In this document: positions 57,543 through 61,142 of the stretch, one piece after another | Numbering within the stretch: the first letter of the stretch is position 1 | Layout: every line of letters begins with the position of its first letter | From: Dehalococcoidia bacterium | GTDB lineage: Bacteria > Chloroflexota > Dehalococcoidia > Tepidiformales > Tepidiformaceae | Assembly (NCBI GenBank): GCA_009839725.1 | Contig: VXPF01000117.1 | Location: forward strand, 83,531 to 147,530 | DNA length: 64,000 nt | Direction of reading: 5' to 3' | Program-made: the position numbers and the translations under genes | Notes under the pieces: generated by a model | Databases searched by the model: none | Seen by the model: only the letters and a program-made list of their open reading frames with translations | Told to the model about the DNA's origin: nothing

Positions 57543-58895
57543 CTAGCGGACTCCGGGGAGGCGCTCGGCGAGGGCCTCGACGAGGCCGGCGATGGGGACG
57601 CGTACCTGCTCCTGGGTGTCGCGCTCGCGGATGGTGACGGCCTCGTCCTCCAGCGTGTCGAAGTCGACGGTGACGCAGAGGGGAGTGCCGATCTCGTCCT
57701 GGCGACGGTAGCGGCGGCCGATCGACTGCGTCTCGTCGTACTGGGTCATCCAATGGGAGCGGATGAGGGCGTGGATGCGCTTCGCGGTGGGCGTGAGCGT
57801 GTTCTTCTTGGAGAGCGGCAGCACGGCCACCTTGATGGGCGCGATCACGGCGGGGAGCTTGAGTACGACGCGCTCGTCGCCCTTCTCGTCGGGCTCGACG
57901 GTGTAGTTCTCGAGGAGCGCGACGGCGAGGGTGCGGGTGAGACCGGCGGCGGGCTCGATCACGTAGGGCGTGAAGCGCTCGCGGGTCTCCTCGTCGAAAT
58001 AGCTGAGGTCCTGGCCGCTGTGCTCGCTGTGCGCCTTCAGGTCGAAGTCGGTGCGGTTGGCGATGCCTTCGAGCTCGCCCCAGCCCCAGGGGAACTCGTA
58101 CTCGATGTCGCTCGTGCCGGCGCTGTAGTGCGAGAGCTCCTCGGGCTCGTGGTCGCGGATGCGCATGCGGACGGGGTCGATGCCGATGGTCTCGGCGTAC
58201 CAGCGCTGGCGCTCGTCGATCCAGTAGCGGTGCCACTCGGCGGCGTCGGCGGGGCGGCAGAAGAACTCCATCTCCATCTGCTCGAACTCGAGCGTGCGGA
58301 AGATGAAGCGGCCGGGCGTGATCTCGTTGCGGAAGCTGACGCGGGTCTGGGCTATGCCGAAGGGGAGCTTCCGGCGCATGGAGCTGCGCACGTTCTCGAA
58401 GTTCACGAACATGCCCTGGGCGGTCTCGGGTGGCAGGTAGGCGGTGGAGCCCTCGTCGACGACCGTCCCCACCTGGGTGCTGAACATGAGGTTGAAGAGG
58501 CGGGGCTCGGTCAGCTCGCCGCCGCAGGTCGGGCAAAGGAGATTGCCCGCCTCGTCGCGCTGTACCGCACCGTACTGACCCTCCTCGATATGGTCGGGGC
58601 GGAAGCGCTGGCGGCAGGTCTTGCAGTCGACGAGGGGGTCGTTGAACGTCTCGGTGTGGCCGCTGGCGACCCAGACGCGGGGGTTGGTCATCATGGCCGC
58701 ATCGATGCCGACGACGTCGTCGCGCTCGCGCACCATGGCGCGCCACCAGGCGTCGCGGATGTTGCGCTTCAGCTCGACGCCGAGGGGGCCGTAGTCGTAG
58801 GCGTTGGCGAAACCGCCGTAAATCTCGGACGAGGGGAAGACGAAACCCCGGCGCTTGGCCAGGGAGACGATGGTGTCGAGGTCGGGTGCGGGCAC
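57543..58895 (-). CDS. glyQS: Glycyl-tRNA synthetase (single-chain, class IIA)
   Basis: A 450-residue dimeric (alpha2) GlyRS, unlike the two-subunit enzyme of many bacteria. GFVFPSSEIYGGFANAYDYGPLG opens the protein, FNLMFSTQVG and LPPETAQGMFVNFENV form the active-site region, and a zinc-like CKTC...CPTCGG lies near residues 85-130. The anticodon-binding domain is C-terminal. GTG 58895 has TTGGAGCCACCC before it. Its upstream neighbour pncC is 64 bases away on the same strand. Confidence 0.95.
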   Translation of the reverse strand: MPAPDLDTIVSLAKRRGFVFPSSEIYGGFANAYDYGPLGVELKRNIRDAWWRAMVRERDDVVGIDAAMMTNPRVWVASGHTETFNDPLVDCKTCRQRFRPDHIEEGQYGAVQRDEAGNLLCPTCGGELTEPRLFNLMFSTQVGTVVDEGSTAYLPPETAQGMFVNFENVRSSMRRKLPFGIAQTRVSFRNEITPGRFIFRTLEFEQMEMEFFCRPADAAEWHRYWIDERQRWYAETIGIDPVRMRIRDHEPEELSHYSAGTSDIEYEFPWGWGELEGIANRTDFDLKAHSEHSGQDLSYFDEETRERFTPYVIEPAAGLTRTLAVALLENYTVEPDEKGDERVVLKLPAVIAPIKVAVLPLSKKNTLTPTAKRIHALIRSHWMTQYDETQSIGRRYRRQDEIGTPLCVTVDFDTLEDEAVTIRERDTQEQVRVPIAGLVEALAERLPGVR

Positions 58896-58959
58896 GGGTG
58901 GCTCCAATCTCGCGCTGGCTGCGCAGCCTGGGGAGGCTTCACCTTCGCCCAACGGGGAG

Positions 58960-59454
58960 TTAGGCGCCAGAGTCGAGGGCGGCGACCAGCATCTCCAGGG
59001 CGTGCTCGGCGATCTGCTCCATGATGGCGACGCGCGAGCCCTCGAGCTGGAGCTCCTCGCTGATCGTGCCGTCGGGCCCGGCCACCGCGAAGGAGACGCC
59101 GCCGATGGGCCTGGAAGTGCGGCCCTTCGTGGGCCCGGCCATGCCGCTTTCGGCAATGACGTAGTCGGCTCCGGTGCGTTCGCGCACAGACTCGGCGATG
59201 GCGGTCACGCCCGCGGGGGTGACGGTGCCGTGCTCTCGCAGGAACTCGATGCTGACGCCGAGGGTGTCCGACTTCGAGGGCATCGTGTAGGCGACGAGGC
59301 CCCGGTCGAACCACTTCGAGGCGCCGGAAACGCTGATGAGGCGGGCGGAGATAAGGCCGCCGGCGGTGCTCTCCGCAACGGCCACGCGCGCCTCGCGGGC
59401 AAGCAGCAACTCGCCGACGCGGGCGGCGAGGGCATCGTTCTCTTGAATGGACAT
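58960..59454 (-). CDS. pncC: Nicotinamide-nucleotide amidohydrolase PncC (CinA C-terminal family)
   Basis: A 164-residue single-domain CinA_C protein that deamidates nicotinamide mononucleotide in the NAD pyridine cycle. VAVAESTAGGLISARL holds the nucleophilic Ser, YTMPSKSDTLGV the Tyr/Lys pair, and AESGMAGPTKGRTSRPIG the nucleotide loop (a variant of GIAGPGG). No CinA N-terminal domain is attached. Its start codon is 22 bases from the divergent phzF start. Confidence 0.9.
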   Translation of the reverse strand: MSIQENDALAARVGELLLAREARVAVAESTAGGLISARLISVSGASKWFDRGLVAYTMPSKSDTLGVSIEFLREHGTVTPAGVTAIAESVRERTGADYVIAESGMAGPTKGRTSRPIGGVSFAVAGPDGTISEELQLEGSRVAIMEQIAEHALEMLVAALDSGA

Positions 59455-59476
59455 GGCCCGATGCTACGCTGCCGCG
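59455..59476. promoter_or_regulatory. Overlapping divergent leaderless-type -10 elements (pncC/phzF)
   Basis: The 22 bases between the two divergent start codons contain TACGCT (59465-59470, plus), 6 bases before the phzF ATG, and TAGCAT (59466-59461, minus), 6 bases before the pncC ATG. The hexamers share two base pairs, so the two polymerases cannot bind at once. No room remains for ribosome binding sites. Confidence 0.6.
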
Positions 59477-60367
59477 ATGCCCGAGTACGAGATCACGATC
59501 GTCGATTCGTTCACCACAGAGCGGTACGCCGGCAACCCTTGCGCCGTGGTCACGCGGGCGGAGGGCCTCGCGCCGGAGCAGATGCAGGCGATCGCGCGCG
59601 AGATGAACCTGAGTGAAACGGCGTTCGTCACGCCCTCACAGGTGGCGGATGTGCGCGTGCGCTTCTTCACGCCCAGGAAGGAGATCCCGCTCGCGGGGCA
59701 CCCGACGATCGTCACGATGCACGCGCTCGTGGAGCAGAGCCGCTTCGAAGTTGGTGAGGAGCCGCGACGGATCACGCAGGAGCTGAACGTCGGTGTGCTG
59801 CCGGTGGACCTCTCCCGCGGGGACGGCGGGCGGGTGCGCGTCGCCATGACGCAGGCGACACCCCAGTTCCACCAGGAGCTCGACCGGGCCGCGTTCGCGG
59901 ACGTCCTCGGCATCTCCGCTTCCGACCTGCTCGCCGAGGCGCCACCCCAGGTCATAAGCACGGGCACACGGCAGGCGATGATCCCCGTGCGGTCGCTGGC
60001 TGTGCTGGAGCAGGTAAGTCCCGACCTGGAGCGGCTGGCCGCTCTGGAGACGGCGGAGGGCTACTTCAGCACGCACGTATTCGCGCTGGAGACGTACGAC
60101 CCGGCGAACCGTGTGCACTCGCGACACTTCGGCCCGTCGTCGGGGGTCTGGGAGGATCCCGTGACGGGGAGCGCCACGGGCGGCATGGCGGCGTACCTGT
60201 GGCGCCACGGCCTTCTGCGCGAGGCCTCTTACACGGTCGAGCAAGGGCACCTCATGGGGCGGCCGGGCAGGGTCGAGGTGGAGGTGGAGGGCGAGGGGGA
60301 CACGCCGATGGTCGTGCGCATCGCGGGGACAGCCGTCACGGTCCTGCGGGGGAGTATCACGATCTAG
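59477..60367 (+). CDS. PhzF-family isomerase-like protein
   Basis: A 296-residue protein with the duplicated diaminopimelate-epimerase-like fold of PhzF. DSFTTERYAGNPCAVVT, LSETAFVTPS with the catalytic Glu (E45-type), RFFTPRKEIPLAGHPTI, and the C-terminal half DPVTGSATGGMAAYLW are characteristic. Only phenazine producers use PhzF for that pathway; most homologues, including probably this one, have unknown substrates. Predicted leaderless start at ATG 59477. Confidence 0.9.
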   Translation: MPEYEITIVDSFTTERYAGNPCAVVTRAEGLAPEQMQAIAREMNLSETAFVTPSQVADVRVRFFTPRKEIPLAGHPTIVTMHALVEQSRFEVGEEPRRITQELNVGVLPVDLSRGDGGRVRVAMTQATPQFHQELDRAAFADVLGISASDLLAEAPPQVISTGTRQAMIPVRSLAVLEQVSPDLERLAALETAEGYFSTHVFALETYDPANRVHSRHFGPSSGVWEDPVTGSATGGMAAYLWRHGLLREASYTVEQGHLMGRPGRVEVEVEGEGDTPMVVRIAGTAVTVLRGSITI

Positions 60368-60394: not shown

Positions 60395-60407
60395 TACGCT
60401 GCCCGCC
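60395..60407 (+). promoter_or_regulatory. Leaderless-type -10 element of the SCO1664-like gene
   Basis: TGCTACGCT (hexamer TACGCT, 60395-60400) ends 7 bases before the ATG at 60408. Confidence 0.5.
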
Positions 60408-61142
60408 ATGAGCCAGACCGTGGACATGGCCGGGGCCGAGAAGCTGCTCAGCGAGGCGGACTTCGAGGATGTGAAGCTGCTGTGGTCATCCAGCAACTAC
60501 GTCTACCTGGCGAAGCTCTGCAGCGGCGACGGCCAGGAGATCGCGGCCGTCTACAAGCCGGAGTCGGGCGAGACGCCGCTGTGGGACTTCCCCACGGGCA
60601 CGCTCTACGCGCGGGAGGTGGCGGCCTATCAGCTCGCGCAACTGCTGGGGTGGTCGTTCATCCCGCCGACGGTGGTGCGGGACGGGCCGCAGGGGGTGGG
60701 GTCGCTGCAGCTCTACGTCCCCCACGACCGCGCCTCGCACTTCTTCGAGCAGCGCGATGATCCGGCGCTCGTGCCGCAGCTCCAGCGCATGGCCGTGTTC
60801 GACTACGTGGCCAACAACGCCGACCGCAAGGGCGGTCACAGCCTGCTCGACGAGCAAGGGCGGATCTGGGGGATCGACCACGGCCTCTGCTTCCACCGGG
60901 AGTACAAGATGCGCACGGTCATCTGGGACTGGGCGGAGCAGCCCATCTCGGACGAGTGGCTCGCCGACGTCGAGCAGACGGCGCTGGCCGTCGCGGGGGA
61001 TGCCGACGAAACCGAAGCGCTAAGAGGCCTCCTCTCGCACGGCGAGATAGAGGCGCTGCTGGGACGGGCGGACCGCCTCCTGCGGACGCGCGCCATGCCC
61101 ACCCCGGGACCACACCGGAGCTATCCCTGGCCGCTGGTCTGA
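60408..61142 (+). CDS. SCO1664-family PI3/4-kinase-like protein
   Basis: A 244-residue protein with a phosphatidylinositol 3/4-kinase-like catalytic core. AVYKPESGETPLWDFPTG holds the likely ATP-binding Lys, DYVANNADRKGGHSLL the catalytic-loop D-x4-N-x-D pattern, and WGIDHGLCFH the metal-binding Asp. This family is best known from Actinobacteria, usually with no assigned substrate. Length is normal. Phosphorylation of a small molecule or protein is inferred only from the fold. Confidence 0.82.
   Translation: MSQTVDMAGAEKLLSEADFEDVKLLWSSSNYVYLAKLCSGDGQEIAAVYKPESGETPLWDFPTGTLYAREVAAYQLAQLLGWSFIPPTVVRDGPQGVGSLQLYVPHDRASHFFEQRDDPALVPQLQRMAVFDYVANNADRKGGHSLLDEQGRIWGIDHGLCFHREYKMRTVIWDWAEQPISDEWLADVEQTALAVAGDADETEALRGLLSHGEIEALLGRADRLLRTRAMPTPGPHRSYPWPLV

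Follow-up and report, generated by a model that had tools for sequence, protein, structure and literature searches.

How two divergent genes can share 22 bp of DNA as their only intergenic sequence is the question raised by the pncC/phzF locus, which lies in a 64,000-nt stretch of DNA (hereafter the window) from G000, a GC-rich (~69%) metagenome-assembled genome of 2.83 Mb in 160 contigs that is ~92% complete. The host lineage is known from metagenome assemblies only, and its same-genus relatives have been deposited as Dehalococcoidia or Chloroflexi assemblies. Positions 59452-59479 read CAT (59452-59454), GGCCCGATGCTACGCTGCCGCG (59455-59476, 22 bp) and ATG (59477-59479), and the sequence bears out the geometry of the original prediction exactly: the divergent ATGs are separated by 22 bp, and two -10 hexamers, one per strand and each 6 bases from its ATG, overlap by two base pairs. 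The overlap of TAGCAT and TACGCT is the TA step at 59465-59466, and the -11 and -12 positions of the two hexamers pair reciprocally, as in known bidirectional promoters. The bases before the two ATGs, CGGGCC and GCCGCG, contain no GGAGG-like motif. An upstream extension of pncC is blocked by an in-frame stop four codons up, which is the TAG of TAGCAT, thus the pncC start cannot lie further out.

Table 1. Positions of genes and of predicted promoter elements at the pncC/phzF locus, numbered along the window
Feature	Position	Strand	Remarks
pncC (CinA C-terminal / nicotinamide-nucleotide amidase family)	58960..59454	-	164 aa; predicted leaderless start at 59454; PF02464
phzF-family gene	59477..60367	+	296 aa; predicted leaderless start at 59477; TIGR00654
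-10 hexamer TAGCAT for pncC (predicted)	59461..59466	-	6 nt from ATG; complement strand
-10 hexamer TACGCT for phzF (predicted)	59465..59470	+	6 nt from ATG
Extended -10 TG of the phzF hexamer (TGCTACGCT)	59462-59463	+	Predicted
12-bp core CGATGCTACGCT, shared bidirectional element	59459..59470	none	Spans both hexamers; invariant in 9 sequences
Possible -35 TTGAAT for phzF	59443..59448	+	16-bp spacer; within pncC codons 3-4; suggestive
glyS, glycyl-tRNA synthetase	57543..58895	-	64 nt downstream of pncC; Shine-Dalgarno-led (GGAG before GTG); NF003211
Separate leaderless -10 TACGCT (TGCTACGCT) of the SCO1664-family gene (60408-61142)	60395..60400	+	7 nt from ATG; retained in G004

Across bacteria (PMC3160421), including Actinobacteria, Deinococcus-Thermus and others (PMC3160421, PMC12340547), some genes are known to be leaderless and to carry a TANNNT box ~12 bp ahead of the start codon. 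Start signals were counted here from gene calls over ~0.25 Mb of G000 and ~0.4 Mb of the same-genus genome G003. TANNNT stands exactly 6 nt before the start in 6.3% of start-proximal ATGs of G000 versus 0.0% of 1108 internal ATGs, and in 4.2% versus 0.1% in G003; in the sampled DNA the motif is essentially absent 3-5 nt upstream of starts and peaks sharply at 6 nt, the very spacing of both the pncC and the phzF hexamer. Counted loosely, so that the figures are upper bounds, 44 of the 211 genes sampled from G000 and 43 of the 344 sampled from G003 have a possible start codon preceded by TANNNT at a distance of 6-9 nt. Because of the 6-nt peak and these gene counts, leaderless promoters like those of other bacteria are a real class in this genome. 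The likeness to known TANNNT systems (PMC3160421, PMC12340547) extends to the hexamer, its distance, the Shine-Dalgarno-free starts and the sizeable fraction of leaderless genes in the sampled DNA; the difference is that two such units are here joined back to back. While an earlier survey arrived at ~4.7% leaderless genes in those Chloroflexi genomes with any detected, the figure for this genus is roughly 13-21% by the looser count.

A second leaderless promoter type, GNAATTC-N14-TANNNT-N6-RTG, was also identified, with 45 matches in 7 of the 9 genus genomes (13 in the source genome, at L109, L111-L115, L117-L120 and other loci) and 0 matches of the reversed control in the genus genomes. The genes below it encode LuxR-type HTH proteins with fn3 or RCC1-repeat regions, RCC1-repeat (lipo)proteins, secreted peptidase-like proteins and a DUF2339 membrane protein. 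Together they resemble a cell-surface regulon governed by an alternative sigma factor or a regulator.

The hexamer arrangement at pncC/phzF is not a product of chance, given the genome-wide TANNNT signal and the occurrence of its 28-bp pattern once per genome in 8 of the 9 same-genus genomes, each time at this locus. The window contains one match of this pattern versus 0.00 expected, and the reversed control matched at a single place in one genome of the same-genus set. The median gap between divergent genes is 124 bp in one sampled genome and 148 bp in the other; among the pairs sampled, pncC/phzF is the sole case of overlapping hexamers and, over the ~0.65 Mb sampled, the tightest pair with recognisable promoters on both sides. 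No genus member has the more compact 18-bp form, CATN5TANNNTAN5ATG. Elsewhere in the family the 28-bp pattern occurs in G017 (two places), G031 and G016. The flanking ORFs rule out the G017 and G031 matches as divergent leaderless pairs, both G017 sites having an ORF start at one side and none at the other, and the G016 match is a perfect palindrome. A general sigma-70 consensus scan reported no promoter at the site; it demands near-consensus -35 and -10 elements and is uninformative for this promoter type.

The comparison set comprised nine same-genus genomes, eight with phzF and one (G004) without it, together with contig L042. L042 is labelled Acidimicrobiia, carries a genus-type pncC (87%) with the conserved 22-bp gap and a glyS that is just 72% identical, and probably represents either an assembly under the wrong label or a neighbouring lineage. 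As the original prediction would have it, relatives keep both the gap and the hexamers: the eight genus members with phzF, and L042, all have a gap of exactly 22 bp, TAGCAT on the pncC side is kept in all nine genus-type loci and TGCTACGCT on the phzF side in 9 of 9 loci with phzF. Across these nine sequences the 12 contiguous bases of the core are invariant and the outer gap bases vary. By comparison, among amino-acid-invariant columns, only 5 of 68 fourfold-degenerate sites in pncC and 4 of 71 in phzF are invariant (9 of 139 together, 6.5%). It might be argued that the gap is coding, with phzF starting at 59447 or 59453 and overlapping pncC, so that the conservation would reflect an N-terminal extension; the phzF frame is indeed open upstream, giving an ORF of 306 aa from 59447. 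However, each of the codons CGA, TGC, TAC and GCT has the same third base in all nine genus-type loci while flanking codons change the encoded amino acid, the family model begins at the internal ATG (59477), and relatives in other genera show no comparable extension ahead of the corresponding ATG. This explanation is thus hardly credible, and the core was rejected as coding DNA on the invariance of its third positions: because these are fixed while neighbouring codons vary, it behaves as promoter DNA. In G003, a frame change near residue 197 splits phzF (L008 2605-2608; same genome as L037) with the promoter intact, putatively by recent decay or assembly error.

G004, the sole genus member breaking the arrangement, has lost phzF, and its pncC faces an SCO1664-family gene across 65 bp. 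Here TGCTACGCT is replaced by TGCTACCAC, with the plus-strand TACGCT changed to TACCAC and the -35-like TTGAAT to CCGAAC, and the pncC TAGCAT is retained. Although this comparison is a single event in one species, the deletion is consistent with two working promoters, neither of which outlasts the gene it serves. It bears directly on the alternative that a leaderless promoter works in just one direction, the second hexamer being a by-product of -10 symmetry whose gene is driven from elsewhere. Symmetry could do this, since TGCTA reads TAGCA on the other strand and an extended -10 preceded by A automatically gives TAGCAT, and the pncC side is the one without a -35. However, TAGCAT survives in G004 after the loss of phzF and TAGNNT stands before pncC in other genera, the phzF TANNNT is kept in other genera despite wide gaps, and both spacings fall exactly at the genome-wide peak; a single functional direction therefore seems unlikely.

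Of the two directions, the phzF side looks the stronger, with its extended -10 and a possible -35; no recognisable -35 was seen for pncC at the locus. In leaderless promoters of the genus TTG is enriched 23 nt before the -10 (8 of 87), and the phzF TTGAAT stands at 22 nt. The pncC glutamine codon that yields TTGAAT is CAA in 9 of 9 loci and CGG in the phzF-less G004, while CAA makes up 7.3% of glutamine codons and 14% within the first ten codons. A role of TTGAAT as the phzF -35 is thus suggestive, confounded by the general AT-richness at gene starts.

The two halves of the promoter can be recognised apart from each other elsewhere in the family. In other genera with the divergent pair, gaps are 53-139 bp, TANNNT stands 5-7 nt before the phzF ATG, and pncC is mostly preceded by Shine-Dalgarno-like sequences. 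In other genera where phzF does not lie close by, a leaderless TAGNNT box of its own often precedes pncC, and the boxes a few nucleotides before pncC starts in other genera are TAG[GA]AT or TAGACT. From such boxes, which stand apart in other genera, this genus seems to have united two leaderless promoters on one symmetric element, a putative order of events. In the family at large, phzF has apparently been lost repeatedly (L014, L021, L028, L032 and L035), pncC then adjoining the SCO1664-family gene; a phzF remnant is present in L028.

As for the products, the enzyme names of the original prediction stand at family level only (PncC and PhzF), and, the equivalog cut-off having been missed, the NAD-salvage activity is no more than plausible. 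PncC matches Pfam PF02464 (E 3e-45) and TIGR00199 (110 bits versus a cut-off of 68.9), and failed the equivalog-level test for nicotinamide-nucleotide amidase (NF002975, 105.5 bits, cut-off 212). A Ser/Lys catalytic dyad (S31, K63) has been reported for A. tumefaciens CinA (PMC5384747); in the alignment with 2A9S the dyad is kept, as are S48, Y58 and probably R145, and C32, T33 and T105 differ. NMN deamidase activity is plausible. PhzF matches NCBIfam TIGR00654 (E 4e-79, 266 bits versus a cut-off of 76.2) and PDB 3EDN (E 6e-48), and its assignment by these matches is at family level only; position 2 of the TIGR00654 model aligns to residue 3, hence the chosen ATG fits the family start.

GlyS (NF003211, E 1e-187) is the sole glycyl-tRNA synthetase match in the ~92% complete assembly. 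It is probably co-transcribed from the pncC promoter, because in G000 the two genes are close together, glyS is led by a Shine-Dalgarno sequence and no TANNNT was found between the pncC start and glyS, an argument that presumes TANNNT to be the relevant promoter type. The pncC-glyS neighbourhood (57543-59454) is found in all nine genus members and is absent from the roughly 1.5 kb flanks examined in other genera of the family.

Bidirectional promoters have been described in E. coli by Warman, Grainger and colleagues (PMC12825309, PMC10268837). They are defined by start sites 7-25 bp apart (PMC10268837), spacings of 18, 10 and 23 bp being common (PMC12825309), and opposing polymerases are unable to occupy such an element together. 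The pncC/phzF promoter resembles them in its pseudo-symmetrical opposite-strand -10 elements with common bases, located between two divergent protein genes, and in its predicted start-site distance of 23 bp, one of the common spacings. It differs in that both predicted start sites coincide with start codons, that the promoter occupies the entire intergenic gap, and that the host belongs to a GC-rich Dehalococcoidia lineage. The locus would thus belong to a known type, with predicted leaderless mRNAs on both sides as the new twist; no doubly leaderless bidirectional promoter was found in the open-access literature searched, the coverage of which is incomplete. With 18- and 10-bp spacings common in E. 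coli, describing this promoter as among the most compact possible was an overstatement.

We therefore propose, with a probability of about 0.8, that a single bidirectional core promoter of the 23-bp class makes up the 22-bp gap, both mRNAs being leaderless and both genes expressed with weak interference. The leaderless nature of both promoters agrees with the TANNNT peak at 6 nt and with comparative conservation, and the leaderless, shared-promoter reading is well supported by sequence comparison. The gap would serve the housekeeping sigma factor through two opposite-strand TANNNT elements using a common TA step, in which -11A/-12T of one pair with -12T/-11A of the other. Transcription is predicted to begin at the A of each ATG (59454 and 59477), which puts the two starts 23 bp apart if both transcripts are leaderless. 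RNA polymerase, we infer, would bind in either orientation and never in both simultaneously, each initiation event producing phzF in one direction or, in the other, pncC, probably followed by glyS.

Exclusion of one initiation by the other was part of the original prediction and is consistent with the literature, by which simultaneous binding would be sterically barred. The further claim of an obligate either/or switch, in which strong mutual exclusion makes cells express pncC or phzF, does not follow, for exclusion at a single event is not a switch in gene output. The common base pairs of the -10 elements would indeed bar simultaneous binding, and in E. coli interference was seen only with strong activation of one direction, which can repress the other (PMC12825309). 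However, basal activity of all five bidirectional promoters tested there was too low for more than little competition, none being measurable (PMC12825309), and no operator dyad or adjacent regulator gene that could bias direction was seen at the locus. Such a switch would also turn off a pncC unit that probably carries the only glyS match, which would be harmful, and for this reason we regard it as very improbable. A bidirectional promoter of ordinary strength would instead leave both genes on with weak mutual interference; since basal bidirectional promoters in E. coli operate without competition, low-to-moderate, coupled expression of both genes is most likely.

It is also conceivable, if doubtful, that competition between polymerases matters and is what maintains the fused promoter, with phzF initiation limiting or steadying expression of pncC and the essential glyS. 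If true, a two-bp overlap would couple PhzF activity to glycine tRNA charging and NAD recycling in this genus. Start-codon annotation in this uncultured Dehalococcoidia lineage has to reckon with leaderless initiation, which is common there. With two predicted leaderless genes on one core promoter and no other intergenic sequence, an arrangement conserved in the genus and separable in other genera, the locus is a clean natural setting in which to ask how bidirectional promoters arise and whether competition between polymerases carries a physiological cost.
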